From Xestospongia muta (Eukaryota; Porifera; Demospongiae; Haplosclerida; Petrosiidae): a stretch of DNA of 64,000 nt. The DNA lies in the NCBI GenBank assembly GCA_963693285.1, contig OY848917.1, positions 29,027,245 through 29,091,244 on the forward strand, read 5' to 3'. Made by a program: the position numbers and the translations under genes. The notes under the pieces were generated by a model. The model was given only the letters and a program-made list of their open reading frames with translations. It ran no database searches and was not told the origin of the DNA. Position 1 is the stretch's first letter. Every line of letters begins with the position of its first letter. Below are positions 26,609 to 64,000 of this stretch, piece by piece.

Positions 26609-26833
26609 TTTCTATCAGTACTACAAGTAGCCATCACAATTAATCTAACATTGAGGTTAAAGGAATTTGACGTCATAGTTGACGGAGGATTCCTAGAGTA
26701 TACTATTTTCCAAGAAATCTGTGGAAATTAAACGCTCACCAGAAATACAACTTAAATTATCTTGTTTGTTCATCAATTTGACATTAATTCTCTATTGTTT
26801 GTTTGATCTTTCATTGTTAAATCTGCTGTTATC

Positions 26834-34397: not shown

Positions 34398-34596
34398 TGT
34401 TGGAGAATAGTGATCTATAAGTATGAATATTTATGTAACATAGTTACGTAATACTACTTCCTGTTAATGATGGTATATTAAATGATTTTTTTTGTACTAT
34501 CTTATATATATATCTTTTGATCAATCTCTCTCGTTGACTTGTTTTTGTGATTATTGTTATCTCAAGAATTAATTCTTTGATTAGACTCTGCTAACA
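34398..34596 (+). repeat. Copia 5' LTR
   Basis: 199 bp, from TGTTGGAGAATAG to CTCTGCTAACA. The TATATATAT stretch near 34505 may be the promoter TATA region (inference). Confidence 0.95.
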
Positions 34597-34610
34597 GGTT
34601 ATGAGCCCAG
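34597..34610 (+). promoter_or_regulatory. primer binding site (initiator tRNA-Met half)
   Basis: GGTTATGAGCCCAG directly follows the LTR. Its complement CTGGGCTCATAACC has the form of a tRNA-iMet anticodon arm (stem CTGGG, loop with CAT). Drosophila copia primes from such an internal half of tRNA-iMet rather than from the tRNA 3' end. The match is by eye. Confidence 0.65.
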
Positions 34611-34622
34611 ATCGACGCTATT

Positions 34623-37600
34623 ATGGCTGAAGCAACAATTGGACAAACAAAATGTTCTATTGACAGACTAGATGCAAACAATTGGTTCGTTTGGAAATTC
34701 CAAATGAAACATCTGCTGCTGGCTAATGGTCTGTGGGGCCTAGTAGACGAAACAGAGGTACTCAGGCATGGAGCGACAGCTCAACAAGAAGCTGAATACA
34801 ACAAAAGGGCGCAGAAAGCGTTCTCAACGATTGTACTCGCTATTAGCCCGTCTCAACTTTATCTTATTACTTCATATGATAGACCGAAGCCAGCATGGGA
34901 TGCTTTGTGTAACCATTTTGAGAGAGACACACTAGCTAACAAACTCCTACTGAAGAAACAATATTTTCGTTTAGAGATGAAAGAAGGTACCTCCGTCGAA
35001 GCTCACATGAAAAGGATGAAGGAATTGACTGATAAGCTCTCCGCTCTCGGAGCACCTATTGCAGAGGAAGACCAGGTGGTAACGCTCCTTGGTAGTTTGC
35101 CTGCAAGTTTTCAAACGTTAGTTACAGCTCTAGAGGCTCGAGACACAGTCACTTTGAGCCATGCTCAGCAATCGTTGATCCATGAAGAAAAGAAGCTGAA
35201 CGGGGAATATGGTAGGGAAAGGCCAGGTGACTCTGGTACAGCACTCTACCATCGTGAGAGAGGTAGTAACAGGCAACGTCGCCAATGGAAACCGAAGTGC
35301 TTTACGTGTGGACAAACAGGACATTTTCGACGCGACTGTCCCAAGAAACCACAAGAGCACAACCCTAAACCGACTTGTAGACACAATGCAAAACCTGCTA
35401 AAGAGATGTCACAGGAGTCAGAGGGAGTATTTACAGCCCTGGCTGATTCGTCAATGACTGAAGAGTGGATAATTGATTCTGGTGCCACTAGTCACATGAC
35501 TCATTCAAAGGAGCTGTTGTATCAGTATTGCAAGTTTGAAGTTCCAGAGAAAGTGAGCCTTGGTGATGGACGTCACGTAGAAGCTCTTGGTACAGGGGAT
35601 ATTCAAGTTAATATGACATTTAAGGTTAGCAAACAGAAAAAGTGTGTCATGAGACGTGTGTTGTATGTCCCTAAACTTACAAGTAATTTGTTTTCAGTAA
35701 GAGCAGCAGTATTGAAGGGCAATACTGTTAGATTCGGAGACTTAAATTGTTGGATTAAGAATAGAAAAGGGAAGTTAATTGGCATGGGGTCGTTGGTTGA
35801 TAATAAGTTATACAAGCTAAACTGTACACCCGTGGTGCAGGTACAACAATGTGCCTCACCAGCATTTGAAAAGGGTAACTCAGCTGATTTATGGCATAGA
35901 AGACTTGGTCATTTGGGGAAACAGCAAATGAGAGAAGTAGCTTCTAAAGAGCTCGCAAGAGGAATGACCATTTCGAAGAATGATGAGCTATCATTTTGTG
36001 AATCATGCATTGAAGGCAAACTGCACAGAAAACCGTTTAAGTGTGTTGGAGGAATTCGCTCCACTAGAAAGTTACAATGCGTTCACAGTGACGTGTGTGG
36101 ACCGATGCCCACTGAGTCCTTAGGACAAAAGAGATATTTCGTGTCGTTCACTGATGACTATTCAAGATGTTGTCAAGTCTATTTTATGAGACACAAATCA
36201 GAAGTTTTACATAAGTTTAAAGAGTTTGAAGCTCTCGCTACGAATGAAAGTGGATTGAGTATCGGTACACTTCGTACAGACAACGGAGGGGAGTATGTTT
36301 CTAAAGAATTTGAAGAATTTCTAAAGTCTAAAGGTATCAGACATGAACTCACCGTCCCATATTCTCCTGCACAGAATGGAGTAGCAGAAAGACTAAATCG
36401 CACTTTGATGGAGTCAGCAAGAACCATGATTAGATTTGCAAGGTTACCTGATAGCTATTGGGGTGAAGCTGTGGCTACAGCAGCTTACATTAGAAACAGA
36501 GTTCCCACCAGTGCATTTAAGGAAAGGGTATCACCTTATGAGAAATGGTACCAAAGGAGACCAGATCTAAGTCATCTGAGGGTGTTTGGTTGTGTGGCTT
36601 ATGCCCACATTCCAGACTGTCAAAGAAACAAATTAACCAAAAAGGCTGAGAAGTTTAGATTTGTTGGTTATAGCCTCAACTCCAAAGGTTATAGGTTGAT
36701 GAATGAGAAAACCACCAAAGTTGTGATAAGCAGAGATGTGGTCTTTAATGAAAATGATTTTTGGGTAAACAAAACTGAAGCAGACACAATCATCCCAAAT
36801 GAGGTGAATGTTCAAGTAGACTCTGATAAGAATAACACTCAACCTAATAAGCCAGTGGGAGAAATACGCCAGTCGATTAGGCAGAGACATCCTCCAGTTA
36901 GGTTTGGAACGGATGAATATGTCGAAGCTGCAATAGTGAATGAAGATGTAGAACCTGAAAATATAGAAGAGGCGTTTGCTACTGAAAATTGGAGCTCAGC
37001 AGCTAATGCAGAGTATGAATCCTTAATGGAGAATAATACTTGGGAACTGGTCGATCTACCAGAAGGTCGAAAGTCGATAGAATGTAAATGGATTTTTAAA
37101 GTTAAGAGAGGAAGTGATGGTGACATAAAGAGATATAAAGCTCGTTTGGTGGCAAAGGGATTTGCTCAAAAGTATGGAATTGATTATGAAGAAACCTTTG
37201 CACCAGTGGTACGTTATTCATCGATTCGAACCCTGTTGGCATATGCTATACAGAATGATATGCTAATACACCAAATGGACGTTGTGACAGCATTCCTCAA
37301 TGGAACACTTGAAGAAGATATATACATGCAACAACCAGCAGGATACGTCCAACCAGGAAAAGAAAAGATGGTTTGCAAGTTAAAGAAATCGTTGTATGGA
37401 CTAAAACAATCTCCCAGGTGTTGGAACAAGGAATTCAAGGAGCATATGGAATCAGCTAACTTTAAGCAGAGTACTGCAGATCCATGCATCTTTACTAAGA
37501 CAGAAGAATCTGGAGAGATTATAATAGTTGCTGTATACGTAGATGATCTAATAATTGTTACCAAGACGAATGAGAAGATGAACGAAATAAAGAGAAATCT

Positions 37601-38537
37601 AACATCAAGATTCAAAATGAAAGACTTAGGAAAATTGCATCACTGTCTTGGGATAACAGTTGAGTATGATGAGAGCAAGAGGTGCTTGTGGTTACATCAG
37701 AAGCCATATATCTCAGCAATGTTAGAGAAGTTTGGATTGTCACAAGCTAAGACTGTATCAACACCTGCTAATCTTAATGAGAAGCTCAAACGGGATGATG
37801 GAACTAGCAAATTGGTGGATCCTACACTGTACCAGTCTATGGTTGGAAGCCTCTTGTATGCGGCTATTGCCACTCGTCCCGACATTTCACAAGCAGTGGG
37901 AGCAGTGTCAAAGTATTGCTCAAATCCAGGTGAAGCTCACCTAACAGCGGTAAAGAGGATCTTAAGATACTTAAAGGAGACCATTAACTTAGGACTAAAA
38001 TATGAGAAATTAGAAAGTAGTACTCTAGTAGGATACTCAGACGCAGATTGGGCGGGTGACCTTGATGATCGTCACTCTACAAGTGGTAATCTATTTTTAC
38101 TTGCTGGAGGACCAGTAAGCTGGCTCAGTAAGAAACAATCTACAGTGGCCTTATCAACTGCAGAGGCAGAATACATGTCTTTATGTGGTGCCACGCAAGA
38201 AGCTGTTTGGTTAAGACGACTACTTAGTGATTTCAAATTTTGTCAAGAAGAACCAACAGTTATAAAAGAAGATAATCAAGGGACAATTGCAATAGCAAGA
38301 AATCCAGTTTCCCATTCTCGTACCAAACACATCGACATCAAATATCATTATGTACGTGAAACAATTCTGGATGGATACGTTACATTAGAATATTGTTCGA
38401 CTGAGCAAATGATTGCCGACTTGCTCACAAAGCCACTTACTCGTGATCGATTTGAAACATTACGAAATTTAATGGGACTAGAATCGTTACCAACCACTAT
38501 TCAAACTGATAAATCAAGTGGGAGTGTTGGAGAATAG
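34623..38537 (+). CDS. Copia gag-pol polyprotein, intact
   Basis: A single 1304-codon frame starts 26 nt after the 5' LTR. In order: a UBN2/gag-like capsid region (residues ~1-200); zinc knuckle CFTCGQTGHFRRDC (~226); aspartic protease WIIDSGATSHMT (~282); integrase zinc motif WHRRLGHLGK with CESC (~424-460); integrase catalytic core with HSDVCGPM (~487), RTDNGGEY (~551) and NGVAERLNR (~583); reverse transcriptase with QMDVVTAFLNGTLEEDIY and the YVDDLII active site (~970); RNase H with GYSDADWAGD (~1137) and STAEAEYMSL. The protease-integrase-RT-RNase H order is diagnostic of Copia. No frameshift or stop is seen, and the stop codon lies 13 nt inside the 3' LTR. A GTGGGAG polypurine tract sits just before that LTR. 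The element appears competent to move. Confidence 0.97.
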   Translation: MAEATIGQTKCSIDRLDANNWFVWKFQMKHLLLANGLWGLVDETEVLRHGATAQQEAEYNKRAQKAFSTIVLAISPSQLYLITSYDRPKPAWDALCNHFERDTLANKLLLKKQYFRLEMKEGTSVEAHMKRMKELTDKLSALGAPIAEEDQVVTLLGSLPASFQTLVTALEARDTVTLSHAQQSLIHEEKKLNGEYGRERPGDSGTALYHRERGSNRQRRQWKPKCFTCGQTGHFRRDCPKKPQEHNPKPTCRHNAKPAKEMSQESEGVFTALADSSMTEEWIIDSGATSHMTHSKELLYQYCKFEVPEKVSLGDGRHVEALGTGDIQVNMTFKVSKQKKCVMRRVLYVPKLTSNLFSVRAAVLKGNTVRFGDLNCWIKNRKGKLIGMGSLVDNKLYKLNCTPVVQVQQCASPAFEKGNSADLWHRRLGHLGKQQMREVASKELARGMTISKNDELSFCESCIEGKLHRKPFKCVGGIRSTRKLQCVHSDVCGPMPTESLGQKRYFVSFTDDYSRCCQVYFMRHKSEVLHKFKEFEALATNESGLSIGTLRTDNGGEYVSKEFEEFLKSKGIRHELTVPYSPAQNGVAERLNRTLMESARTMIRFARLPDSYWGEAVATAAYIRNRVPTSAFKERVSPYEKWYQRRPDLSHLRVFGCVAYAHIPDCQRNKLTKKAEKFRFVGYSLNSKGYRLMNEKTTKVVISRDVVFNENDFWVNKTEADTIIPNEVNVQVDSDKNNTQPNKPVGEIRQSIRQRHPPVRFGTDEYVEAAIVNEDVEPENIEEAFATENWSSAANAEYESLMENNTWELVDLPEGRKSIECKWIFKVKRGSDGDIKRYKARLVAKGFAQKYGIDYEETFAPVVRYSSIRTLLAYAIQNDMLIHQMDVVTAFLNGTLEEDIYMQQPAGYVQPGKEKMVCKLKKSLYGLKQSPRCWNKEFKEHMESANFKQSTADPCIFTKTEESGEIIIVAVYVDDLIIVTKTNEKMNEIKRNLTSRFKMKDLGKLHHCLGITVEYDESKRCLWLHQKPYISAMLEKFGLSQAKTVSTPANLNEKLKRDDGTSKLVDPTLYQSMVGSLLYAAIATRPDISQAVGAVSKYCSNPGEAHLTAVKRILRYLKETINLGLKYEKLESSTLVGYSDADWAGDLDDRHSTSGNLFLLAGGPVSWLSKKQSTVALSTAEAEYMSLCGATQEAVWLRRLLSDFKFCQEEPTVIKEDNQGTIAIARNPVSHSRTKHIDIKYHYVRETILDGYVTLEYCSTEQMIADLLTKPLTRDRFETLRNLMGLESLPTTIQTDKSSGSVGE

Positions 38538-38724
38538 TGATCTATAAGTATGAATATTTATGTAACATAGTTACGTAATACTACTTCCTGTTAATGATGG
38601 TATATAAAATGATTTTTTTTTGTACTATCTTATATATATATCTTTTGATCAATCTCTCTCGTTGACTTGTTTTTGTGATTATTGTTATCTCAAGAATTAA
38701 TTCTTTGATTAGACTCTGCTAACA
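38525..38724 (+). repeat. Copia 3' LTR
   Basis: 200 bp, matching the 5' LTR except for one T-to-A change and one extra T. It is followed by the target duplication GCTGA. Confidence 0.95.
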
Positions 38725-41700
38725 GCTGAGACAACTGTGATTATAATACTAAAAGTTTAATAAAATTTTAGCAATGCCCTGTTTTATAGTATAGCATATC
38801 ATGAGTAAACTCATTCAACCTGTAATAATATAGAAACACAGCATTGTGAGCATGCTTCACTCAATTATAGTTCAAATTAAAATAACAAAATAAATAAAAA
38901 TTGTAAAATATTATTAAATGTAGGGATTGCTCTACAAACATCTCAAACAAGCCCAAAGTAGGAATGACACTATAAAAATTCCTACATAGTAGCCAGAAAG
39001 AAGTACCTATTAGCAGTTTTTATACATTATGTTATCTTTAAAAAATCCTCACTTTCTATTCAACTGAACAATCTTTATGTTTGATTTGTTAATGTAACTG
39101 TTTGTCATATACAACTGTTGTAACAAATCATTATGCCCTTGATATAGTGGCTGCTATATAGGGATGTCCATACTACCATTCCTATATCTATCTATACCTT
39201 GGGCTTGTTTGAGATGTTTTTCCCACCATCCTACTTTAATACTTCGAAATTTAGTTTTACTTGTGTAATATATAGCCATAACAACTTCCCACTTTCATAA
39301 TATATGAATAGATTATATAACAAGGTTGAAGTAGATACCATTCTGAGCAATCAGATTGCTTCATTTCAATTACTGCCTTGGACTGCTGCACATCTACATC
39401 TACATTTGCATATTATCTTTATTTAGCATGGGAACACTAACTAAAGTTTACTTACAGTAAAGAAATGGGCTTCCTTATGTATGTTTTTGTCTACAATACA
39501 TGAACAAATTACTCAGATGCTCATCAATTATTTTTTATTTATTTATAATTTTTCAGTCTTCACTTGTTTGACACTTTCTAGAGCATTTCATTTAATAAAA
39601 AGCAATTTTGAGTTCTGTAAATTTTGATATTGCTGAGCTATTTATTGATAACCTTTTTAAATTTTCATAACATTTGTCATTATAACTTTAAGATTCACAA
39701 GGCAGCAATTTTAGTTAAACTGATTCTATATCTTGGAAATCACAGGCTCAGAAAAGAGTGTGTAAGATTTATACCTTACTGGGAGGTGTATAAATTATTA
39801 TTGTTCTGAAATCGAACAATGTGATTGGTCAATTATGGCATAGCATGATACAATATGTATGTAATATATTGCTGTAATGAACTACTATTTGTTTATATTT
39901 TCATATTCAGAAAAAGGTATCACCTTTACAAAATGCGCTGTACAGAAATCATACTGAAACTGCATCACTACTAAAGGAGTGTGGAGGAGATCTTAGTATT
40001 GATACAAAAGTAATATATAATGGTGTAATATTTATGTCTTACTCTACTTGATGTCATTTTAATTGAATAATATCATTCCTTCCTTTATGTCTAGAAAACA
40101 CCCTTACATTGGGCAGCAGAAAATGATAATGAAACACTAGTTGAAATGTTAATACTGGCTGGAGAAGATCCCAATATTGCTGATCTAGTAATGTGGAATA
40201 TAATAACTTATTAAAATACTAAGCCTTTATTCAAATGCATGTTTTATATTTGAGTTAGTATAGAATTGTCAAAGGAAGCTATGCTGGAAATATAAGTGAG
40301 CATGAAATCTTACTAATGAATTGGTAATTTTTGTCCGGCAAAAATAATTTTAAAAGCATTTATCATTGATTAATTTATTAGCTCTTTGATATTGTTTATT
40401 AGCATTTAGCAGACAAGTTTATCATTGCAAAAGTTTAGTCCTTCCTTGCAAAGAGTGGAATTGCTGCTGTTTATGCATTGAGCAGATATGATACATGTTG
40501 ATAAAGTAATTTTTTGTCTGAAGTAATTTGTTGTTAGCCTAATATACTGGTGTGTCATTAGTTCTATTTTTAAGAGACATCGTCCGTTAATAAAATATTT
40601 TTTATTTTCTTTAGGATGGTAATACTCCATTACACTTTGCCTGTAAACAAGGTCATCTTGATGTTATACACTGCTTGGTTCATCATGGAGCAGATACATA
40701 TATTGAGAATAGTGATGGGAACACTCCATTGGATGAATGTCAAGACGAAGATAGAGATGATATTGCAGATGCTATTTATTTTTCAGAAGGTAGCTTGAGA
40801 TACATGACATTATGTGGTAACACAAAGAGAAGGAAGTTTTTTAGAACAGTTCATATTATGATAGACAGTTCTTAGAAGCCAACATTCCAAATAAAGCTAT
40901 TATCTAAAGCTTAATATATTAATATATCTTATAATATTACTGATATGTACCATTTTTTCCTTTGTAGAAATAGCTTATGACACTGAGGATCTGGAAACTA
41001 ATGATATGGTATGTTTTTGTCTTCATCAATAAACCAGTTGATTTATTAATTCAGTAGTCATTTGTTTAGCATAGGATAACCAAGAAAAACAACTTGATTA
41101 AATTGTTGATGTGATTTTACAAGCCTTGAGGATATGTATTACATATATGTGAGCGTGACCCAACATGTTGTTACAATTAAGATTAAGCCTAAATGATTAA
41201 AACAGAAGACTAAAAGTGTGATTCAATTTTTTATTGAAGTTATGAGAGGTTATGCTTGGCATTATTATCTATCCTTCATGCGGAATTTTAGCTTAGTTCT
41301 CCATCACTTAACAATTTGTAATTATGCAGTATTCCTAACATGATTGATTACAATTATATAATGAAACATCACTACATTAAGTTATTTTAATAGTTTACTG
41401 TGAAATCTTGCAGATATTGTTTGCTGCTGTAAGAAATGGAGATATTGAAAAAGTGAGAACAGCTCTTAATGAAGGAGCTAATGCTAATGCTCAGAATAGG
41501 GTAAATAAATAAACACTAACTTGCTTGCAGTATATAAGATTGTCATAGTATTACTGTTCATACGAGGTAAATGAGAAACAAATATTGCTACTAATTATGA
41601 AAGAGCATTTATTTCTTAACCCTGAAGGGTCAAATGATGTAAATACTTTTAAAAAAGATAGCTTGATCATGAGGGGGCTAATTTTATATGGATTATCTTC

Positions 41701-44700
41701 AACGTTTTTCTGGCTATTCCCTAATTATAGTGAACCTCCTTAGGAAGATGTTGTCTCATAAATTGCATACTTTAGCAACTTTAATTTATATACAGTCATT
41801 AACTATTTTTGTAATTATTGATAATGTCTTCCTTTTATAGGATCATAACTCACCTTTACACTATGCAGCAAGCCAAGGCAACACTGAAATAGTATCACTC
41901 CTAATAGAATCAGGAGGAGATCCTAACATAGCAAATGATGTAATGTCTCTAGTAGAGTAATTATTGAAATGCATCGACAAATCTAACAATATCATTATTA
42001 ACTTAAAATTTGTTGTCTTTCACAGGACCAGGAAACACCTTTACATTGTGGAGTATTTTCAAGTAATACTGACACAGTATCACTCTTGTTACAGGCTGAT
42101 GGAGATCCCACGATTGGCAATAAAGTAATAGTTTATCTAAATTTTTAATCCACCATAGTTAGTTATTTAATTAAATCCTTTTCATTTTTTATATTTAGTT
42201 TCATGAAACACCTTTACGTGTTGCAGTAGATTTTGGTTATACGGAAATAGTGTCACTGTTAATACAGGCAGGAGGAAATCCCAATGCACTTGCTCAGGTA
42301 ATGCATGCCTATTAAAAAATATTCTTAACACTACATTACTCTTCCAAACTATGCTACTATACAAATTGTTGTTCAGGAGTAATGTATAACTGTCAGTTCT
42401 TTATCTTAAATTTTGATCATGTTTTTACCTCATGTTTATTTCTTTAGAGTGGTAATACTCTTTTACATCGTGCATGCCACTATGGCTATGTAGATGTAAT
42501 TCGCTGCTTGCTCTCTCAAGGAGCAGATCCGACTATTGAGAATGATGATGATGAGACTCCATAAGATTTGTGTCAAGATAATGATGAAATTGTGAAAATT
42601 TTTGCTGAATATAATCCAAAGCGAGGTGATTGGTATAATAATAACTACACAACAAGCTTACATACTTTATACTTCAATGTTCTTATAACATTTTGTCTAG
42701 TTTTGGAGAATGTTTCTGAGTGGAACATTGAAAGCATTGATGAAGGACAGGTCTTTGAGAAGTCACAATATGGAATAAAGTTGGTTATCCCACCATCCTC
42801 AGTGGAACAGGGACAGGAAGTGGAAACAAAAGTTAAGGTTGTGTCACCAGTAGAATCTGAGTTTGAGCTTCCTTCTGATGTTGAGCCTGTCAGCTGTTTC
42901 TACAAGATTGAAACAACAGGAAAATTTTCTAGACCTGTTGAGCTTCATCTCCAACATAATGTTGAGCTTACTTCACAAGAGGAAAGTCAACAGCTTGCTT
43001 TTATAACAGCTAAAGGTCCACCACCTTATAAGTTTGAACTTGTGCCAATTGCAATTGATCAAAAGTTCAAGCCTAATGACAACTCAGGTGTTGTAGAAGT
43101 TTCTGATTTGTCTGTGTTCAGCATTGTCAAGCAAAAGCTTAAAGCTATTTTTTGCCAAGAACCATCTTATAGCTATGTAATGACTGTTTTTTTCAAGCAT
43201 ATGCTGAAGTCCAGTTGGGCAATACAAGCTGTGGTTACAAGGAATCTTGGGCCTTTTCTCAAGGTATACAACTAAAAGTATTTATAATGTACTTGTACTG
43301 TTTTGTCTGTTATAGAGAGTTAGCACTGAGAAATGTTTTGAAAGTTGGAATAAGATAGAACCAGTCTCTTTCCACTTTGATCCAGAAGTCAATGAAGTGA
43401 CATCTATATTTGTTAATGACTGCTTTCAAATCAAACCATTGAAGAGGCCTTTTAAAGTAAAATATTAAACTTAACTTGAAAATTTTACTTTTTTGTAATG
43501 AAGGTCACTAAAAAAGCTGTTGATAAAAGTCAACCAGACACTGCTCTACTTTACTTAAAGTTTAAGGCATCACTCAAATCCAACCAAGACCTTGCAGATT
43601 TAGAGCTCACTTTTAAAGGAATGAGAGATGGAGAGAGTTTAGTTATTGCTAGTAATGAATTACAAGCAATACAAGGAAAGACAGGTAGGAACATAATGAT
43701 TTGCTATATCAATAATTTAAGGGGTATTGAATTATTTTCTATTAGATGAACTTACCAAGCCTACTGTTAAAAATGCCACTGAGCACTTACAGACCTCATC
43801 TCGAAAAGAACTTTCTATGGACTTGTTAGGTAAGTATGAACATGTAATACATTGTTACTATAAAATATGCCTATTAGGTAAAGAACCAAAGAAACAACAT
43901 CTTATGTCACTGCTTCACTGTATCAAACATATGTGGGATACTATTGGAGAACAACTTGCTGTACGATATGGTGATATAAAATCTGCTGAATACAACATGA
44001 CATATGACAGTACCAAAAAGCTCTCAGAGATCCTGCAGGTTTGGATTGATAAGAGAACTTGTGAGGTGTCTTGGAGAACAATCATCACTGATGTAGATGA
44101 CCCTCCAGTTGAAAATAAGAGGGTAGCTGATGAGATATGTGAATTTCTATCCAGATCAGATATTCAGATTGAGTATCTATCAAGTGGTCAGTTTGAATTA
44201 CATTGTGTACATGTATGTTCATTAGCTTGTCACTATAGGTTACTCTTTTGCTACATTTAGTGCTCCACCTCCAATACCTCCCAGACGAAGGATAAGCAAA
44301 CGTATGTTTGGATTTTAATTATTCATATGAATTTACTCTTTTTCTTTTCAGCTTCAATTCCACCAATACCTGCTAAACGAAAAAGTACATTATTTGTTAC
44401 ATCTAGTAAACATGAGTTACTTCTCTATTACTACTAGGTAAGATTAGCTCTGAAGCTACTCCAGCTCCAATTCCACCAGTGCCAAAGAAAAGAAGTAAGT
44501 TAGTAAATTTATTTCTTTAATGGTGACAGTCATTAATACTTTATTTAGCTCGAATACCTTCTGTAAAGAAACATAAGTTAACCCTATCTCACTAGGTTAA
44601 ACTTTTTTATGTTCTTATGACTTCAATAGAGGAGCAGGAACTTGATGAAATGGAACAAGAAGCTCCACCACAATCATCCAATCCTATTGGAGTAAACATA

Positions 44701-45358
44701 CATCTTAAATTAATTATAATGTATTTTTATTAAGTTAGGACATGTAGTCAAACCACATTCAACTGTATTTATTGTTGTATGTAATAGCATATGGAGTTAT
44801 TTTTTCTTTTTTTGTGAGCCTTGTCACAGCACAGACAATATATTATTCTAATATTGAAATGTTAATTCTTATCTTATCTAGTTTGCTGCTCATCATCTTC
44901 ATAAACAAGCTAAACAATGGGAGGAGAAAGATAATGATATGGTAGTAGCTACTAAACGTATGGCTAGATTGATGGTGAAAATGTCAAAATTTGCAAGGTA
45001 TTTTCCACAAAATTAAATTCTTTTCTTAACTCCTATAACATTTTCTTATCAAGCTCAGTTTTTTATTAAGATTTATGAGTACAAAATATGAGTATACTTG
45101 TAGTTATAGAATGTGCTACTTCAAGTTTGATGATATGATATTCTTCCTTATATAGAGATGAAGAAGGTGATGTCACTTCTAAAGATGATTTTATCCAAAC
45201 AGCTAATCTTATTGTCAAAGATAGTAAAGAGGTTGTTGAAATAGCATCAAAAGTTGTTGTAGTCTGTACAGATATACAACTGAAAAATGTGAGTTAGGCA
45301 GTTCATTCATAGACTTAGTTAAATCATTATGTCAATAATATATATGTATGTATGTTTA

Positions 45359-45389
<31 letters not shown>

Positions 45390-46194
45390 GGTGAATATGA
45401 TTGTAATTTATGATTCGTTATCACCCCTTAATTGAGATAATTATATAGAAAGTCAGAGTTGCTTGTATACCTGTGTTTGGCTGTTTACAAACATGTTTTT
45501 AATTATTGTTTTGTATTACTTTACATACAGACTTTGTCACAAGTTCTTGATGGTATTCCAACTTATGCCACTCAACTCAAAATTAATGTTGGTGTGCATG
45601 CAAGAAGAGGAGGAGATGATATGTTATAAACTAATAAGTATTAGTAGTCAGCCATTGTTATAATCCACAAAACAGAACAGACTTATTTTGACAATAATAC
45701 CTCTAACTATAACACTACAACAAGAACTCTTTCAAAAAATATGAAACTAAAGTTAATTTATATTAAACTGTATGTACAAACATATTGTGTAACCTTTGAA
45801 GAATACTTACTTTTATTAGTTAATTGATACTTGCATGATTATGAACTTTATATTTAATTATGATAGTACATGTATTTATAGTTGTATATGCATATTTATT
45901 TATATTATCTATATCCATACCTTACATGTAATATTTCTAAATGCTACATTCTCTTTTTGTTCTATAATTGTACTAGATATCTATATAACTAAACTTTTTT
46001 ACCATGTGTACTTTCTTCATTTTACAGACCCAGAGGCAGATAAAGAAGCCACTAGATTATTGACAGTTAATGCTGAAAATCTCATGACTGCTGTTGGTGT
46101 AGTACTTAATACTACAGAGAGTGCTTTAATAAAAGTACCTCCAGAGGTTCGTTCACATTTGACTGGACTAAGCTGGGTCAAAAAATTGAACTGA

Positions 46195-50177: not shown

Positions 50178-50203
50178 ATGGCTGCTATAAAACGCTTTTT
50201 TGA
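50171..50203 (+). promoter_or_regulatory. overlapping upstream ORF
   Basis: An ATG 7 nt before the main start opens a 10-codon frame ([10 protein letters not shown], then TGA) that overlaps the main start in another frame. Copy 3 keeps the same arrangement (62387-62419). It may lower translation of the main frame. Confidence 0.45.
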
Positions 50204-53200
50204 TAAAAGGAAACTAGTGAGTTTGTATACTTATATGTACTATAGTGTAATGCAGTCAATGTATATCTTCTTATTAACTTACAGACTATCTATGCAGTCA
50301 CTCTGAGAAATGTACATTGTGATTGATTTATAGGAAAAAATATAGTGTGTAGGAGTTAATGATGCAGCAGCCTAGTTGTAGACAAATGCACATTAATTGA
50401 TACAGACAAAAACTGAGATGGGAAAGTAGAATTATGATGGATAATTACTAAGAGACCAGTTTCTTACTATCCATACCATATTGGATCTGTGTTCTATTCC
50501 TAACTATATACACATGAGATAAGCAACTCTACAATAATTATTGTATACCTATATACAAAGCCATCAAATAACATAATTATTCAATATTTGAATTTAGATA
50601 CTCTATGTAATATTAACAATTCATTGCATGGCAATTGCCAATGAACACAAACTTTATTAATGGGAAAAATACTATAATTGCTGATTCAATATTTCAATAT
50701 CCATGATTTTACTTTTCCTTGCCATAGAACGATGAGTTAGTTACTGGTGTTATACTTGGGATTATAGAAAATGTGAGATCATCTCTTGAGAATGGAGCTG
50801 ATGTTAACACTACTAAAGATGAGGTATAGTAACTACATAATACATATGGAAGCTAATATTGTAATAACATATCATTATAGTGATAGAGTTTTGATTATGG
50901 GTCTAATAAAATAGTTAACGTACTTCATGAAATTATATAATGGAATTGTTTTAAATGATTTGCAGAACTGGGTGTGTTTTTCTATTTTTGCATGTGATTT
51001 TAAAGTTCAAACTCAGTCTTAATGAAGCAATAACTATTAATCACAAGTACTTTTTATGATGTTTTGTAATTTTCTTAGGATCGAGAAACTCCTTTATGCC
51101 TAGCAGCAAATTATGGTCATTCTGATATAGTATCACTGTTAATAATTGCTGGAGGAGATCCCAATTTTACTCCTAACAAGGTAATTTATCTAGTAGGAAA
51201 GTTCTATAGACAAATTACCTAACTAAAATATTATTCAAAGAATATGTTGACTGATATTTTACTGTTTTTGGGTTTGTTACAATTTTATAGGACCGAGAAA
51301 CACCTTTACTTAAGGCATCAAGCAATGGTTATACTGAAATAGTATCACAGTTAATAGAGGCTGGAGGAGATCCTAATGCTGCTAGTAAAGTAATTTCTAG
51401 TGTTAAACTTATTACCAAGCACACATTATGTACATGTGCATGCTCATTTCTCATCATTTATCTTATTGCTATATAAACTTATACATACATTAATTTTATT
51501 TCATTGAAAATGAACTAGTCTTCATAAGGTCACATTTTCTTTTAGACACAAGAGACACCTTTACATTGGGCATCATTTAAAGGTCACACTGAAATTGTGT
51601 CACTGTTAATAAAGGCTGGAGCAAATCCTAATGCCACTAATAAAGTAATGTTTAATGCCAACCTTTCTAATTATGCATAAACCATTTTACTTAACCATTT
51701 AATTGTAGACATTTTAACTTCGTAGCGAAGATAATAGAACAATTACAGTAGCCCTCATCCATGTAGACTGAGAGATACCATAATTATTTCAATTTACTTT
51801 GACACTATTATCTTGTGGATTGATAATGCATCTTTTCTAGGAGAGAGAAACACCTTTACATTGGGCAGCACGATGGGGTCATATTGAAATAGTATCACTG
51901 TTATTGCAGGCTGGTGGATATCCTTTTGTTTTAAGCAAAGTAATATCTATGCTATAATATTATAAAGAAGAAATAATTGGCAACTGCTTATTATCACTGT
52001 AAAAATTGGTTGATTGATTTAACCAATATATGGTTATACAGGTTGCAATGTATGTAGCAAATTATTTGATGTAAAAAAGTAAAGATCATGTACAGTTTTT
52101 TATTGCTAATTTTGTAAATATACTATTGAATTGATTGTTCATGTAGCTAATTGATAGAATTATGATGATTTGATTCTTTATAGACAAGATATATACAGGG
52201 ATACATGTATTCAAAATGTCCATGAATCCCTGTAATTTAGTTTATAATCTATGTGTATGAATGGTTTGCTTATACTTGGGAATGCTAGTTATTGACTTAG
52301 CAATCACAGACAAGCTGAGACAACTGTGATTATAATACTAAAAGTTTAATAAAATTTTAGCAATGCCCTGTTTTATAGTATAGCATATCATGAGTAAACT
52401 CATTCAACCTGTAATAATATAGAAACACAGCATTGTGAGCATGCTTCACTCAATTATAGTTCAAATTAAAATAACAAAATAAATAAAAATTGTAAAATAT
52501 TATTAAATGTAGGGATTGCTCTACAAACATCTCAAACAAGCCCAAAGTAGGAATAACACTATAAAAATCCCTACATAGTAGCCAGAAAGAAGTACCTATT
52601 AGCAGTTTTTATACTTTATGTTATCTTTAAAAAATCCTCACTTTCTATTCAACTGAACAATCTTTATGTTTGATTTGTTAATGTAACTGTTTGTCATATA
52701 CAACTGTTGTAACAAAGCATTATGCCCTTGATATAGTGGCTGCTATATAGGGATGTCCATACTACCATTCCTATATCTATCTATCTATACCTTGGGCTTG
52801 TTTGAGATGTTTTTCCCACCATCCTACTTTAATACTTCGAAATTTAGTTTTACTTGTGTAATATATAGCCATAACAACTTCCCACTTTCATAATATATGA
52901 ATAGATTATATAACAAGGTTGAAGTAGATACCATACTGAGCGATCAGATTGCTTCATTTCAATTACTGCCTTGGACTGCTGCACATCTACATCTACATTT
53001 GCATATTATCTTTATTTAGCATGGGAACACTAACTAAAGTTTACTTACAGTAAAGAAATGGGCTTTCTTATGTATGTTTTTGTCTACAATACATGAACAA
53101 ATTACTCAGATGCTCATCAATTATTTTTTATTTATTTATAACTTTTCAGTCTTCACTTGTTTGACACTTTCTAGAGCATTTCATTTAATAAAAAGCAATT

Positions 53201-56200
53201 TTGAGTTCTGTAAATTTTGATATTGCTGAGCTATTTATTGATAACCTTTTTAAATTTTCATAACATTTGTCATTATAACTTTAAGATTCACAAGGCAGCA
53301 ATTTTAGTTAAACTGATTCTATATCTTGGAAATCATAGCCTCAGAAAAGAGCGTGTAAGATTTATACCTTACTGGGAGGTGTATAAATTATTATTGTTCT
53401 GAAATCGAACAATGTGATTGGTCAATTATGGCATAGCATGATACAATATGTATGTAATATATTGCTGTAATGAACTACTATTTGTTTATATTTTCATATT
53501 CAGAAAAAGGTATCACCTTTACAAAATGCGCTGTACAGAAATCATACTGAAACTGCATCACTACTAAAGGAGTGTGGAGGAGATCTTAGTATTGATACAA
53601 AAGTAATATATAATGGTGTAATATTTATGTCTTACTCTACTTGATGTCACTCTAATCGAATAATATCATTCCTTCCTTTATGTCCAGAAAACACCCTTAC
53701 ATTGGGCAGCAGAAAATGATAATGAAACACTAGTTGAAATGTTAATACTGGCTGGAGAAGATCCCAATATTGCTGATCTAGTAATGTGGAATATAATAAC
53801 TTATTAAAATACTAAGCCGTTATTCAAATGCATGTTTTATATTTGAGTTAGTATAGAATTGTCAAGGGAAGCTATGCTGGAAATATAAGTGAGCATGAAA
53901 TCTTACTAATGAATTGGTAATTTTTGTCCGGCAAAAATAATTTTAAAGCATTTATCATTGATTGATTTATTGGCTCTTTGATATTGTTTATTAGCATTTA
54001 GCAGACAAGTTTATCATTGCAAAAGTTTAGTCCTTCCTTGCAAAGAGTGGAATTGCTGCTGTTTATGCATTGAGCAGATATGATACATGTTGATAAAGTA
54101 ATTTTTTGTCTGAAGTAATTTGTTGTTAGCCTAATATACTGGTTTGTCATTAGTTCTATTTTTAAGGGACATCGTCTGTTAATAAAATAATTTTTATTTT
54201 CTTTAGGATGGTAATACTCCATTACACTTTGCCTGTAAACAAGGTCATCTTGATGTTATACGCTGCTTGGTACATCATGGAGCAGATACATATATTGAGA
54301 ATAGTGATGGGAACACTCCATTGGATGAATGTCAAGACGAAGATAGAGATGATATTGCAGATGCTATTTATTTTTCAGAAGGTAGCTTGAGATACATGAC
54401 ATTATGTGGTAACACAAAGAGAAGGAAGTTTTTTAGAACAATTCATATATAGATAGACAGTTCTTAGAAGCCAACATTCCAAATAAAGCTATTATCTAAA
54501 GCTTAATATATTAATATATCTTATAATATTACTGATATGTACCATTTTTTCCTTTGTAGAAATAGCTTATGACACTGAGGATCTGGAAACTAATGATATG
54601 GTATGTTTTTGTCTTCATCAATAAACCAGTTGATTTATTAATTTGTAGTCATTTGTTTAGCACAGAATAACAGAAAAAACAACTTGATTAAATTGTTGAT
54701 GTGATTTTACAAGCCTTGAGGATATGTTTTACATATATGTGAGCGTGACCCAACATGTTACAATTAAGATTAAGCCTAAATGATTAAAACGGAAGACTAA
54801 AAGTGTGATTCAATTTTTTATTGAAGTTATGAGAGGTTATGCTTGGCGTTATTATCTATCCTTCATGCGGAATTTTAGCTTAGTTCTCCATCACTTAACA
54901 ATTTGTAATTATGCAGTATTCCTAACATGATTGATTACAATTATATAGTGAAAGATCACTACATTAAGTATTTTTAATAGTTTACTGTGAAATCTTGCAG
55001 ATATTGTTTGCTGCTGTTAGAAATGGAGATATTGAAAAAGTGAGAGCAGCTCTTAATGAAGGAGCTAATGCTAATGCTCAGAATAGGGTAAATAAATAAA
55101 CACTAACTTGCTTGCAGTATATAAGATTGTCATAGTATTACTGTTCATACAAGGTAAATGAGAAACAAATATTGCTACTAATTATGAAAGAGCATTTATT
55201 TCTTAACCCTGAAGGGTCAAATGATGTAAATACTTTAAAAAACAGATAGCTTGATCGTGAGGGGCTAATTTTATATGGATTATCTTCAAAGTTTTTCTGG
55301 CTATTCCCTAATTATAGTGAACCTCCTTAGGAAGATGTTGTCTCATAAATTGCATACTTTAGCAACTTTAATTTATATACAGTCATTAACTGTTTTTGTA
55401 ATTATTGATATTGTCTTCCTTTTATAGGATCATAACTCACCTTTACATTATGCAGCAAGCCAAGGCAACACTGAAATAGTATCACTCCTAATAGAAGCAG
55501 GAGGAGATCCTAATATAGCAAATGATGTAATGTCTCTAGTAGAGTAATTATTGAAATGCATCGACAAATCTAACAATATCATTTATTAACTTAAAATTTG
55601 TTGTCTTTCACAGGACCAGGAAACACCTTTACATTGTGGAGTATTTTCAAGTAATACTGACACAGTATCACTCTTGTTACAGGCTGATGGAGATCCCACT
55701 ATTGGCAATAAAGTAATAGTTTATCTAAATTTTTAATCCACCATAGTTAGTTATTTAATTAAATCCTTTTCATTTTTTATATTTAGTTTCATGAAACACC
55801 TTTACGTGTTGCAGTAGATTTTGGTTATACGGAAATAGTGTCACTGTTAATACAGGCAGGAGGAAATCCCAATGCACTTGCTCAGGTAATGCATGCCTAT
55901 TTAAAAATATTCTTAACACTACATTACTCTTCCAAACTATGCTACTATACAAAATGTTGTTCAGGAGTAATGTATAACTGTCAGTTCTTTATCTTAAATT
56001 TTGATCATGTTTTTACCTCATGTTTATTTGTTTAGAGTGGTAATACTCTTTTACATCGTGCATGCCACTATGGCTATGTAGATGTAATTCGCTGCTTGTT
56101 ATCTCAAGGAGCAGATCCGACTATTGAGAATGATGATGATGAGACTCCATTAGATTTATGTCAAGATAATGATGAAATTGTGAAAATTTTTGCTGAATAT

Positions 56201-59200
56201 AATCCAAAGAGAGGTGATTGATATAATAATAACTACACAACAAGGCTAGATACTTTATACTTAAATGTTCTTATTACATTTTGTCTAGTTTTGGAAAATG
56301 TTTCTGAGTGGAATATTGAAAGCATTGATGAAGGACAGGTCTTTGAGAAGTCACAATATGGAATAAAATTGGTCATCCCACCATCCTCAGTCGAACAGGG
56401 ACAGGAAGTGGAAACTAAAGTTAAAATAGTTTCACCAGATGAATCTGAGTTTGAGCTTCCTTCTGATGTTGAGCCTGTCAGCTGTTTCTACAAGATTGAA
56501 ACAACAGGAAAATTTTCTAGACCTGTTGAGCTTCATCTTCAACATAATGTTGAGCTTACATCACAAGAGGAAAGTCAACAGCTTGCTTTTATAACAGCTA
56601 AAGGTCCACCACCTTATAAGTTTGAACTTGTGCCAATTGCAATTGATCAAACGTTCAAACCTAACGACAACTCAGGTGTTGTAGAAGTTTCTGATTTCTC
56701 TGTGTTCAGCATTGTCAAGCAAAAGCTTAAAGCTATTTTTTGCCGAGAACCATCTTATAGCTATGTAATGACTGTTTTTTTCAAGCATATGCTAAAGTCT
56801 AGTTGGGCAATACAAGCTGTGGTCACGAGGAATCTTGGGCCCTTTCTCAAGGTATACAGCTAAAAGTATCTATAATGTACATGTACTGTTTTGTCTGTTA
56901 TAGAGAGTTAGGACTGAGAAATGTTTTGAAAGTTGGAATAAGATAGAACCAGTCTCTTTCCACTTTGATCCAGAAGTCAATGAAGTGACATCTATATTTG
57001 TTAATGACTGCTTTCAAATCAAACCATTGAAAAAGCCCTTTAAAGTAAATATTAAACTTAACTTGAAAATTTTACTTTTTGTTTGTAATGAAGGTCACTA
57101 AAAAAGCTGTTGATAAAAGTCAACCAGACACTGCTCTACTTTACTTAAAGTTTAAGGCCTCACTCAAACCCAACCAAGACCTTGCAGATTTAGAGCTCAC
57201 TTTTAAAGGAATGAGAGATGGAGAGGGTTTAGTTATTGCTAGTAATGAATTACAAGCAATACAAGGCAAGACAGGTAGGAACATAAGGATTTGCTATATC
57301 AATAATTTAAGGGCTATTGAATTATTTTTCTATTAGATGAACCTACCAAGCCTACTGTTAAAAATGCCACTGAGCACTTACAGACCTCATCTCGAAAAGA
57401 AATTTCTATGGACTTGTTAGGTAAGTATGAACATGTAATATATTGTTACTATAAAATATTCTTATTAGGTAAAGAACCAAAGAAACAACATCTAATGTCA
57501 CTGCTTCACTGTATCAAACATATGTGGGATACTATTGGAGAACAACTTGCTGTACGATATGGTGACATTAAATCTGCTGAATACAACATGACATATGACA
57601 GTACAAAAAAGCTCTCAGAGGTCTTGCAGGTTTGGATTGATAAGAAAACATGTGAGGTGTCTTGGAGAACAATCATCACTGTTGTAGATGACCCTCCAGT
57701 TGAAAATAAGAGGGTAGTTGATGAGATATGTGAATTTCTAGCCAGATCAGATATTCAGATTGAATATCTATCAAGTGGTCAGTTTGAATTACATTGTGTA
57801 TATGTATATTCATTAGTTTGTCACTATAGGTTACTCTTTTGCTACATTTAGTGCTCCACCTCCAATACCTCCCAGACGAAGGATAAACAAATGTATGTTT
57901 TCATTTAAATTTTTATATAAATGTATTCTTTTTCTTCTCAGCTATAATTCCACCAATACCTGCTAAACGAAAAAGTACATTATTTGTTACATCTAGTAAA
58001 CACGAGTTTATTCCTCTATTATTATTAGGTAAGATTAGTTCTGAAGCTACTCCAGCTCCAATTCCACCAGTGCCAAAGAAAAGAAGTAAGTTAGCAATTT
58101 TATTTCTTTAATGTTGACAGTATATAATACTTTATTTAGCTCGAATACCTTCTGTAAAGAAACGTAAGTTAACTCTATCTCACTAGGTTAAACGTTTTTT
58201 TATCTTTTATGACTCAATAGAGGAGCAAGAACTTGATGAAATGGAACAAGAAGCTCCACCACAATCATCCAATCCTATTGGAGTAAAATACATCTTAAAT
58301 TAATTATAATGTATTTTATTGATTTTGACAAGTAGTCAAGCCACATTCAACTGTATTTATTGTTGTGTGCAATAGCATATGGAGTTAATTTGTCCTTTTT
58401 GTGAGCCTTGTCACAACATAGACTGGTATCATTCTAATATTGAGATGTTAATTCTCATCTTATCTAGTTTGCTGCTCATCATCTTCATAAACAAGCTAAA
58501 CAATGGGAGGAGAAAGATAATGATATGGTAGTAGCTACTAAACGTATGGCAAGATTGATGCTGCAAATGTCAAAGTTTGCAAGGTATTTTCCACAGAATT
58601 AAATGCTTTTCTTAACTCCTATAACATTTTCTTATTAAACTCAAGTTTTTTATTGTATTATAATATGATTATACCTCTAGTTGTTTGTACTTCTTTGAGT
58701 TTAGTCATATAATATTCTTTCTTTTATAGAGATGAAGAAGGTGATGTCACTTCTAAAGATGATTTTATCCAAACAGCTAATCTTATTGTCAAAGATAGCA
58801 AAGAGGTTGTTGAAATAGCATCAAAAGTTGTTGTAGTCTGTACAGATATACAATTGAAAAATGTGAGTTGGACATTTATATAACAAGAATGCACTTTCAT
58901 AGGTTAATTAAGTTAATTGTCAAATATGTATATATGGTAAATATGATTGTAATTTATAATTTGTTATTGCTTCTTAATGAAATGTTTATATGGAAAGTCA
59001 GAGTTGTTTATATACCTGTGTTTGGCTGTTTACAAACATGTTTTTAATTATCGTTTTGTGTTACTTTACATGCAGACTTTGTCACAAGTTCTTGATGGTA
59101 TTCCAACTTATGCCACTCAACTCAAAATTAATGTTGGTGTGCATGCAAGAAGAGGAGGAGATGGTATGTTATAAACTGGGAAGTATTAGTAGTCAACCAT

Positions 59201-59759
59201 TGCTATAATCCACAAAACAGAACAGACTTATTTTGACAATTATACCTCTAACTATAACACTACAACAAGAACCCTTTCCAAAAATGTGAAACTAAAGTTA
59301 ATTTATATTAAGCTATATGTACGTACATACATATTGCTTGTGTAAGCCTTGAAGAATACTTAGTTTTTATAGTTAATTGATACTTGCATGATTATGAACT
59401 TTATAGTTAATTATGACAGTACATGTATTTACAATTGCATATGCATATTTATATTATATATATATATATATATATATCCATACCTTGCATGTAATATTTC
59501 TAAACATTACATTCTCTTTTTGTTCTATAATTGTACTAGATATCTATTTAACTGAACTTATTTACCATGTGTATATTCCCTTCATTTTACAGACCCAGAG
59601 GCAGATAAAGAAGCCACTAGATTGTTGACAGTTAATGCTGAGAATCTCATGACTGCTGTTGGTGTAGTACTTAATACTACAGAGAGTGCTTTAATAAAAG
59701 TACCTCCAGAGGTTCGTGCACATTTGACTGGACTAAGCTGGGTCAAAAAATTGAACTGA
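50178..59759 (+). CDS. ankyrin - ZU5 - Death - proline-rich linker - vinculin tail protein, intact copy 2
   Basis: 29 exons join in phase into 1181 codons: 50178-50216, 50728-50823, 51079-51180, 51291-51389, 51546-51644, 51841-51939, 53504-53602, 53688-53780, 54207-54381, 54560-54600, 55001-55087, 55428-55526, 55614-55712, 55787-55885, 56036-56213, 56289-56851, 56904-57044, 57094-57274, 57337-57420, 57469-57777, 57830-57892, 57942-57995, 58029-58085, 58140-58163, 58221-58282, 58468-58583, 58730-58862, 59076-59163, 59593-59759. Residues 14-490: ~13 ankyrin repeats, mostly one per exon (SLLIxAGGDPN). ~505-640: ZU5-like ([15 protein letters not shown]). ~640-820: possible UPA. ~835-920: Death domain ([19 protein letters not shown]). 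928-1014: linker with [21 protein letters not shown]. 1015-1181: vinculin tail ([38 protein letters not shown], ending LSWVKKLN). Vinculin's actin-binding tail suggests an actin-linked scaffold for Death-domain signalling (inference). Confidence 0.9.
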
Positions 59760-60326
59760 ACTGACAAACTTCATTAGTTGTTATGCCTCTTACTTATATT
59801 ACTGCATTCAATTTGTCTCCTTAATATGTAGTGTAGTTTCTTAGATACATAGTTTTGTATTTACTGTGTACTTTCAGCAATTGTTATAGTCATGATATGT
59901 TAAGAATTTCTACTTTTAGCTTTAAAAATTATTCTTTTTTTAAAAAACTAAATAAATTTTCACTACTGTACGTATATAATCTATTATTAATATCTTCAAA
60001 GACATCAAAGAAAAAAGGATAAACAAGAAGAACAACAAACTAATGTACTATACATGAACAGATGTTCAACAGGGACAAAAGAAAATATTATCCCATAGCT
60101 ATTTACATTTTTGCCTTCAATCATGTCATCCCAGAGAGAGAAAGTAAGGCTAATGCTAGTCTAGCAAGCTAGCCTCTTTTCCTTTTTTATAAGTTGATAG
60201 AATGAGCAGTGTGGGACACAGGACTGCAATACTTACATAGTGGTTATAAACATTATTATAATTACCACGTGGAGTTATATATGGAGGAATAGAAGATACT
60301 TTCAATTCAATTAGATTAGACTTAGT
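59760..60326. other. 3' flank of copy 2
   Basis: Matches the 3' flank of copy 1 (46195-46754). No gene is seen. Confidence 0.5.
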
Positions 60327-62160: not shown

Positions 62161-62393
62161 TGTCTGGAGCATGGCACTCTGGAAGAAAGGAGGATATTTC
62201 AAGAATGGTGTATTGAACTAGTACTAAATTTCATCAGCCAGGAAGTAGTCCCAATGTACTCTGGATATCATTAACAATAATTACATATTTTGATAAACTT
62301 ATTAATTCAATATTCATGCACTGCTGTCCTTTATAAAATGAATAGATTATTCAATTATTTTAGGCGAATTAAAGGGATTTCCTATCATGAAGC

Positions 62394-64000
62394 ATGGCTG
62401 CTATAAAACGCTATTTTGATAAAAGGAAACAAGTGAGTTTGTATACTAGTATGTACTATAATGTAGCGTAGTCCAAACAATGTATATCACTCTTATCAAC
62501 ATATACAATAGCTATCCAGTCCATCTAAGAAATGTACATTGTGAATTTATTTATAGTATAAAATGTAATATGTAGGACATAATAATATAGAATTCTAGTT
62601 GTAGACAAATGCATGTATAATAATTTTTCAGGCAAAAACTGAGATGGAAAGCATACTAAGGAATCAGATTTTTATTATACTACCTATTTACGGAACCCAA
62701 AGGCAGACTTCCTTTTCCACTTTCCAATTTTCAAAATTCCAATTAATGACTCAATTAACTATGGGAAGCCGAGGACAGACATTCCAATTCCTATTTCCAA
62801 TTTTAATCAAATTGGATTATATGGAGTTGTAATGTCCGTCCTTGGTTTCTATACTTGATAAATCTATAATATACAACCAAAATCAGGAACCCAACCAAAC
62901 TGGAAACTTTGTGCTGATACTCGATTGTAAGAGACAGCTATGTATTTTACTAAGTAATGAGAAAAACCTTTAAAAATTGGAAATTTCAAAATATGCGATC
63001 AAAATTGGAAAGTGGAAATGGAAGTCTTCCCTCGGATTCTGTGCTTATTAGATCTTTGTTGTATTCCTAATCATAATACAATTGGTATAATAATATTATA
63101 ATAAAGTTATTTATACATTGTGTATATTGTACACAATGGAAAAGCAATTTTAAAATAATTATTGTATCAATGTACATAGGTACTAAGTAATATATTATTA
63201 AATATTCAGATACTCTTGTGTTATATTACCAACACATTACATGTCAACTATCGATGAACACATCTTCATTAATGGAAAGATACTACAATTACTGATCTAA
63301 TATTTATATAATCTTACTTTTCTTGCCCTAGAATGAGAAGTTAGTAACTGGTGCTGTACTTGGAAACATAGAAGATGTGAGATCATCTCTTGAGAATGGA
63401 GCTGATGTTAACACTACCAAAGATGAGGTATAGTAACTATATAATACATATGGAAGCTAATATTGTAATAACAATATCATTAGCAATGACATTTTGATTA
63501 TATGTCTAATAATAATGTTAATGTACTTCAGGAAATTATATAATGGGATTGTGTTAAGACTTTACAGTATAAGTGTGTTGTTTTTAAGTGTTTATAGTTT
63601 TTTTAGCCATTTTAAAGCTCAAAATACAGTCTTAATGAAGCAATAACTATTAATTACAAGTACATTTTACAAAGTTTTGTAATTTTCTTAGGATCGACAA
63701 ACTCCTTTATACCTAGCAGCACAGTATGGTCATTCTGATATAGTATCATTGTTAATAATTGCTGGAGGAGATCCCAATTTTACTCCTAATAAGGTAATTT
63801 ATCTAGTAGGAAAGTTCTATAGTCAAATTACCTAACTAGAATATTAGTCAAAGAATATGTTGACTGATATTTTACTGTTTTTGGTTTTTGACAATTTTAC
63901 AGGACCGAACAACACCTTTACATGTGGCATCACGTAGTGGTTATACAAAAATAGTATCACAGTTAATAGAGGCTGGAGGAGATCTTAATGCTGCTAGTAA
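62394..64000 (+). CDS. ankyrin-vinculin tail gene, tandem copy 3 (5' part only)
   Basis: The first four exons are present and open: 62394-62432 (MAAIKRYFDKRKQ), 63332-63427, 63692-63793, and 63903 to the window end, where one base of the exon is cut off. The start, splice sites and phases match copy 2. Amino-acid changes are more numerous than between copies 1 and 2, so this copy split off earlier. The ankyrin exons keep the [11 protein letters not shown] motif. The rest of the gene, and whether it keeps the vinculin tail, lies outside the window. Confidence 0.85.
62690..63052. mobile_element. foldback element in intron 1 of copy 3
   Basis: Around 62692-62735 and 62998-63050 the sequence AGACTTCC..TTTCCACTTTCCAATTTT and its reverse complement form arms of ~40 bp. 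A second pair lies inside (CCGAGGACAGACATT / AATGTCCGTCCTTGG). The element is absent from the same intron in copy 2. A short open frame at 62644-62832 runs across it and is not a gene. Confidence 0.6.

Follow-up and report, generated by a model that had tools for sequence, protein, structure and literature searches.

A vinculin-derived tail as a candidate actin anchor in a family of ankyrin-ZU5-Death genes of the sponge Xestospongia muta

A 64,000-nucleotide stretch of the Xestospongia muta genome (assembly GCA_963693285.1, contig OY848917.1, positions 29,027,245 to 29,091,244, forward strand; hereafter the window) contains at 50178-59759 a gene whose 29 exons join with matching phases into a single open frame of 1174 amino acids plus a stop, and all 28 introns have GT-AG borders. 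A preliminary description made from the letters alone had drawn 29 phase-matched exons, every one of which exists and joins, and its junctions at 57777/57830 and 58282/58468 hold as given; its frame of 1181 codons has to be corrected to 1174 residues. The encoded domains follow in the order ankyrin repeats, ZU5, Death-like domain, proline-rich linker and vinculin tail, laid out as follows:

50178..50216, + strand: exon 1 with the start codon ([13 protein letters not shown]); maps unflagged in 8 of 12 related loci (L009, L010, L011, L013, L015, L016, L019, L021)
50728..54381, + strand: exons 2-9, first ankyrin block, mostly one repeat per exon (Pfam PF00023)
54560..54600, + strand: exon 10, acidic stretch joining the ankyrin blocks (exon joining)
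55001..56213, + strand: exons 11-15, second ankyrin block (Pfam)
56289..57274, + strand: exons 16-18, ZU5, then a conserved region at the UPA position (Pfam for ZU5; UPA unmatched)
57337..57420, + strand: exon 19, variable joint (exon joining, comparison)
57469..57777, + strand: exon 20, Death-like domain (Pfam below cut-off; relative P0040; helical model)
57830..58163, + strand: exons 21-24, proline-rich linker, each entered and left in phase 1 (exon joining)
58221..58282, + strand: exon 25, earliest exon of vinculin origin ([18 protein letters not shown]), entered in phase 1 and left in phase 0 (vinculin comparison)
58468..58583, + strand: exon 26, first exon of the vinculin tail (Pfam, PDB sequence match, vinculin-gene borders)
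58730..58862, + strand: exon 27, vinculin tail (Pfam, PDB sequence match, vinculin-gene borders)
59076..59163, + strand: exon 28, vinculin tail with the I997/V1001 equivalents (vinculin-gene borders, residue comparison)
59593..59759, + strand: exon 29, vinculin tail ending in WVKKLN, then the stop (Pfam, vinculin-gene borders)
59951..59956, + strand: AATAAA about 190 bp beyond the stop (signal scan from 57777 on)

The 1174-residue protein was compared with Pfam as three overlapping pieces. Ank (E 8e-94, with PF00023 in 10 stretches over both ankyrin blocks), ZU5 (E 8e-7, one stretch at residues ~517-598) and Vinculin (PF01044, E 3e-40) all lie above the cut-off, and the last of these is the significant match that the preliminary description had proposed to look for in the joined protein. 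The Vinculin match covers profile positions 618-847 of 852 and falls in the C-terminal piece only; no PF01044 match to the vinculin head (talin-binding D1 to D4) was obtained in the remaining two pieces. The product bears a vinculin tail, yet it is not a vinculin. The proposed proline-rich linker before the tail is likewise present, as exons 21-24.

Of the three N-terminal domains that had been named, ankyrin and ZU5 are recognised in the protein itself; Death, at a Pfam E-value of 0.18, falls below the cut-off in this copy. A relative of exon 20, P0040 (61% identity over the aligned part), scores 30 bits against a Death cut-off of 22.6, and the Death label of the 50178-59759 copy is carried by such relatives, not by the copy itself. 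PDB sequence searches with the ZU5-to-Death or Death alignment gave no relative. AlphaFold gave the Death exon a predicted local distance difference test score (pLDDT) of 53.7 from 7 sequences and 63.0, with an all-helical model, from 46; a Foldseek search with this poor model returned nothing at E<=0.001, and its 18 insignificant matches include two death-domain entries and one DED protein. ZU5 was detected by Pfam in 7/7 family members and UPA in 0/7, a PDB profile search likewise gave no UPA, and a UPA domain in this gene is at most putative. The HFS/HFP motif of ZU5 autocleavage is absent in 24/24 loci read, and PIDD-like self-cleavage of ZU5 is therefore unlikely.

Among PDB sequences the tail comes closest to 6bfi 'VIN1' (111 bits), which we take to be a sponge vinculin, followed by vertebrate vinculin (94) and alpha-catenin (41). 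A protein search with words from residues 502-1174, scored for the 7987 candidates with the most words in common, led to two full vinculins, P0001 and P0002. Comparison with these by eye places the start of the homology in exon 25, upstream of the 58282/58468 junction, so the tail that had been assigned to the last four exons is there but begins one exon earlier. A vinculin gene in this genome matches exon 25 at 79% identity and has the same donor. Three such genes lie at 28.84-28.86 Mb of contig C1, ~0.2 Mb from the window; the exon 25 donor and every border of exons 26-29 recur, at an identical splice position and in the same phase, in one or more of them, though in some comparison rows the exon 28 donor is displaced, and exon 27 longer or shorter, by ~1 codon. 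Since borders and phases agree with those of these genes, the tail is a captured block of vinculin exons and not a chance likeness, a block that begins at exon 25 and derives from a vinculin gene of this genome.

A search of the 158-Mb assembly (28 contigs), in which 117 of 117 first-look tail candidates were scored, found 57 first exons of a vinculin tail. Fifty of these lie behind a Death exon on the same strand, at 591-3177 bp (median 983 bp), and the chance of such a pairing is ~0.002 per place; three follow the last seven-transmembrane (7TM) exon of receptor genes, three belong to the vinculin genes, and one stands at L036. An earlier count had 45 of 50 tail first exons so paired with a Death exon, the 50 including a distant tail on contig C13 that is outside the later list of 57. 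The 50 Death-tail pairs are places and not proven genes: C1 has some near-identical pairs (16.67 and 17.01 Mb) that may have arisen by recent duplication or in the assembly. By its sequence, the window gene is a member of a family of about 50 loci, not a lone oddity.

The stops contained in introns 25-28 would suit two adjacent genes, one coding for ankyrin-ZU5-Death and a second, independent one for the vinculin tail. This alternative is very unlikely indeed because 50 of the 57 tail exons are paired with a Death exon in copies diverged to synonymous distances (dS) of about 1, the same pairing that supports the proposed fusion of ankyrin-ZU5-Death to a vinculin tail. The short spacing of the pairs, the onset of vinculin homology in exon 25, before the proposed break, and the matching phases of the linker exons also speak against it, as does the first AATAAA from 57777 on, which falls within exon 29 (at 59693; the scan also gave two ATTAAA in intron 26). 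A split of the gene at exon 25/26 is rejected on the exon 25 homology together with the pairing.

Ankyrin, ZU5, Death, linker and tail stand in order at 19 of 20 fetched 10-kb loci (L009-L028); among these 20, tail exon VT3 was not found in L018. The tail is far from universal among related Death exons, at least 100 of 150 listed (150 scored of 1336 first-look candidates) being without a tail partner. One such tail-less exon, L032, has no Pfam-recognisable domain in the three downstream frames tested. L029 (C8:259 kb) is a shortened copy with Death and an exon-25-like piece, the tail exon of which was not found. L036 (C1:9981600-9984599, tail exon at C1:9982356) shows weak ankyrin matches only (E 0.002-0.07) in the 2.2 kb upstream and no Death exon, and is maybe a third tail arrangement. 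The distant C13 tail is 38% identical in its first exon and may be alpha-catenin.

The three receptor genes (L035, L037 and L038, C3:4.24-4.33 Mb) are of SRCR/Ig/7TM type and then have the vinculin tail block; the full upstream part, with SRCR, Ig and secretin-type 7TM exons before the tail, was seen in L035 only (C3:4.33 Mb). A phase-1 AG|GTACT donor closes the 7TM exon of all three. L035 continues with a linker exon likewise entered in phase 1, through which the frame runs on into the tail; L037 and L038 have the same linker-exon start, with further linker-like exons between it and the tail. A tail-less receptor paralogue, L039, diverges ~20 b before the donor, and none of 117 other matches of the 7TM exon in the genome, many of them partial or distant, is paired with the listed tail exons.

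The tail-block DNA of the L035 receptor gene and of the L030 Death gene is 85-93% identical, introns included. In a tree of 14 captured tails and 7 vinculins, rooted with the human and 6bfi tails, all 14 captured tails form one clade (support 100/99), placed among P0001 and this genome's vinculins, P0002 falling outside (90/86), and the receptor tails group with the L030 tail (100/100). A single clade of the 11 Death-gene tails is rejected by the approximately unbiased (AU) test (p=1.2e-5), a value that flatters since the tested group was chosen after earlier trees had been seen, but with which the L030/L035 DNA match agrees. Because the captured tails form one clade, the L030 tail groups with the receptor tails and tail DNA is shared, there was probably one capture, followed by copying of the tail block between unrelated genes. 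Independent capture from vinculin by each gene lineage would suit the differing ages of the tails (those of L018 and L030 old, most others young); the single clade apart from all 7 vinculins and the L030/L035 identity across introns make it distinctly improbable.

Synonymous distances show a step at several loci. Against the window gene (hereafter copy 2), L023-L029 and L031 have dS of 0.73-1.00 over exons 16-18 plus exon 20, falling to 0.20-0.33 over exons 25-29; the step is smaller in L030 (1.12 in the body, 0.65 in the tail) and missing in three C1:14.8-Mb loci and in L016. Tail introns of L023-L029 align partly to copy 2, at low identity. Taken alone the step could be local conversion, and the shared tail DNA together with the receptor-tail tree is stronger evidence of tail transfer.

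Copy 2 lies in a tandem array, of which the window contains two further parts and an inserted element:

32808..46194, + strand: tandem copy 1, exons 2-29, decayed (DNA and protein comparison)
34398..38725, + strand: Copia-type long terminal repeat (LTR) element in the copy 1 intron equivalent to intron 6 (domain match, end repeats)
63332..64000, + strand: start of tandem copy 3, leaving the window (exon 2 onwards from tblastn; DNA match to the exon 1 region at ~62233-62651)

The Copia-type element has a 1310-amino-acid open frame and is probably a young insertion because its ~0.2-kb end repeats are 99-100% identical, in two blocks. Copies 1 and 2 are 97.8% identical in exons and 95.8% in introns, and the ratio of nonsynonymous to synonymous change (dN/dS) between them is 0.17 over the whole and 0.14 in the tail. 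For L023-L029 the tail dN/dS against copy 2 is 0.27-0.38; within the C1:16-Mb group that of the first tail exon is 1.1. Among copy 2 and L009, L012, L015 and L016, the four of 12 simply mapped loci that have no internal stop, ankyrin exons (exons 1, 6 and 7 omitted) have dN of 0.02-0.09 and dN/dS of 0.41-0.66, as against Death and tail dN of 0.00-0.02; ankyrin-exon dS is also mostly higher in pairs involving copy 2. This fits ankyrin repeats that would be a variable binding part on a steadier chassis, with no evidence of positive selection.

The constraint on the tail also bears on the idea that the fused form is one splice form among others, with many transcripts ending after Death and the tail an optional or decaying C terminus. 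The many tail-less Death exons and the C8 copy with an exon-25-like piece and no tail exon would suit it, as would L035, which would end 8 codons on if its last intron were retained. Tail dN/dS between the window copies and in L023-L029 speaks against it, and we regard it as on the unlikely side.

In vinculin the tail is shut by the head, and the T12 mutant (D974A, K975A, R976A, R978A) is partially activated through a weaker Vh-Vt interaction (excerpts of PMC5384775). The positions equivalent to 975 and 976 are both basic in 6/6 vinculins and in 0/22 Death-gene tails, so the head-tail clamp residues K975 and R976 are never retained together in the latter. The I997 and V1001 positions are retained in 20/20 tails possessing that exon, and W1058 is kept in captured tails. 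The captured tail would most likely bind F-actin, of which the kept I997 and V1001 positions are suggestive. A tail that no longer binds actin, being a head-less dimer or lipid module or simply drifting, would be in keeping with several features: human vinculin ends in a hairpin that is missing here after WVKK, the human T1004 and M1022 positions are altered in most captured tails, and some tails lack exons (VT3 in L018; VT3 and VT4 in L031). Such a loss seems doubtful given the kept I997, V1001 and W1058 and a tail dN/dS below 1 in most comparisons, the first tail exon of the C1:16-Mb group excepted.

We consider it likely that, as a whole, these data are best explained by a shuffled vinculin tail serving as the actin anchor of Death adaptors outside head control and reused across genes. 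An ankyrin-ZU5-Death adaptor, presumably cytosolic, would have gained a 3' block of vinculin exons by exon shuffling at the DNA level, comprising the linker end and four tail exons and entered in phase 1. Expressed and spliced as predicted, the tail would bind F-actin and thereby keep the adaptor, with its putative signalling role, at the actin cortex. Without the vinculin head and with the clamp residues lost, it would escape the vinculin-type shut-off, and control might come instead from ZU5-Death packing or from the proline-rich linker. The ankyrin repeats may choose a varying partner, and the phase-1 proline-rich exons may act as a docking site or spacer. Once captured, the block would have been copied between genes, including the three SRCR/Ig/7TM receptor genes. 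That the tail is a spreading phase-1 'actin anchor' cassette, captured once, passed to about 50 Death-gene loci and three receptor genes and standing outside autoinhibition, we hold to be reasonably probable.

Several observations weigh against this interpretation. First, besides the sub-threshold Death match and the Foldseek result described above, none of the 2, 5 and 45 matches of three protein searches spans both Death and tail. Second, some copies are damaged: copy 1 has no exon 1 region, a stop where codon 481 would be, and introns 24 and 28 that start with AT; stops occur in 8 of the 12 mapped loci, some being misaligned ankyrin exons and some perhaps real; and the L020 target (C1:14.780 Mb) has Death, linker and two tail exons with no ankyrin, ZU5 or last two tail exons, in a stretch that also contains the L019 gene. 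Third, evolution is loose in the linker (dN/dS 0.66, copy 1 against copy 2) and in the L031 tail (0.76 against copy 2). Fourth, L018 has no dS step (tail 0.76, body 0.91), and tail dS is below body dS within the array as well (0.06/0.12 for copy 1, 0.02/0.13 for L009, 0.02/0.11 for L012). Finally, retention of I997 and V1001 is weak evidence of actin binding because I997A and V1001A left the co-sedimentation of vinculin with F-actin undiminished in the excerpts of PMC5384775, where they altered its stiffness-dependent behaviour.

The actin-binding tails of vinculin and alpha-catenin are not known to occur in other proteins. Vinculin itself (6bfi VIN1 and the C1:28.84-28.86 Mb genes) shares with the window gene the tail exons, borders, phases and linker end; unlike vinculin, the gene has no vinculin head match, a tail placed behind ankyrin-ZU5-Death, and positions 975/976 that are not kept together. 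UNC5 and PIDD have the architecture ZU5-UPA-Death. The window gene resembles them in a ZU5 followed by a Death-like domain, but has ankyrin repeats in front, a vinculin tail behind and no autocleavage motif. With canonical ankyrin (24 ANK, ZU5-ZU5-UPA, Death) it shares the order ANK, ZU5, Death, whereas it has one ZU5, ~13 repeat-coding exons, no UPA match and a C-terminal vinculin tail; no ANK + ZU5-ZU5-UPA gene is reported for nine sponge species in the excerpted text of PMC5135030.

The Death/TRADD-N expansion of Amphimedon is a similarly large sponge Death family, with a large Death-superfamily set and variable C termini that include ankyrin repeats (excerpts of PMC8195603); 'vinculin' and 'cytoskelet-' have 0 occurrences in the main text of that paper. 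L035 resembles the Amphimedon adhesion G-protein-coupled receptors, some of which combine SRCR repeats, Ig and 7TM (excerpts of PMC4302439), but the three Xestospongia genes then have the vinculin tail block, and 'vinculin' has 0 occurrences in PMC4302439. The titles and abstract starts found by a literature search that left most subscription papers outside its reach describe neither a Death protein nor a 7TM protein bearing a vinculin tail. Exon shuffling is a known kind of event; the Death-tail product and the reuse of the tail were not found described.

A different C terminus was met in P0004, a single-frame ENA protein (194168-b contig) in which a family Death exon is followed by an intron-like stretch and a proline-rich exon. 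The latter matches the beginning of CAP-Gly genes in the Xestospongia genome at 82-85% identity; a CAP-Gly-like start was seen by eye and Pfam made no call. Clusters of CAP-Gly exons are found some tens of kb or less from Death genes in this genome. Two CAP-Gly stretches, L033 and L034, have no same-strand upstream match to family Death or ZU5, and L033 resembles, by eye, an ankyrin plus CAP-Gly gene. P0004 is a possible second tail swap or an assembly join. Elsewhere in the window, a 677-amino-acid frame at 583-2616 matches class-III aminotransferase at residues 48-420, the rest being without a Pfam match at 1e-5; two very similar 391-amino-acid protein kinase frames lie in opposite orientation ~9 kb apart (10135-11310, +; 20393-21568, -); and at 26807-30606 a repeat-rich frame with a beta-helix match is followed by frames that look multi-helix and membrane-like by eye, perhaps a single large surface protein gene.

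If the proposed interpretation is true, actin anchorage would be swappable by exon shuffling, on Death-domain adaptors as well as on adhesion receptors, and the captured tails would be natural head-less vinculin tails, useful for studying actin binding without autoinhibition. The cytoskeleton would then be linked to an expansion of Death-domain proteins in a sponge, such expansions being discussed as immune or self-recognition systems (excerpts of PMC8195603). These findings suggest that the vinculin tail has been reused in evolution as a plug-in cytoskeleton anchor.

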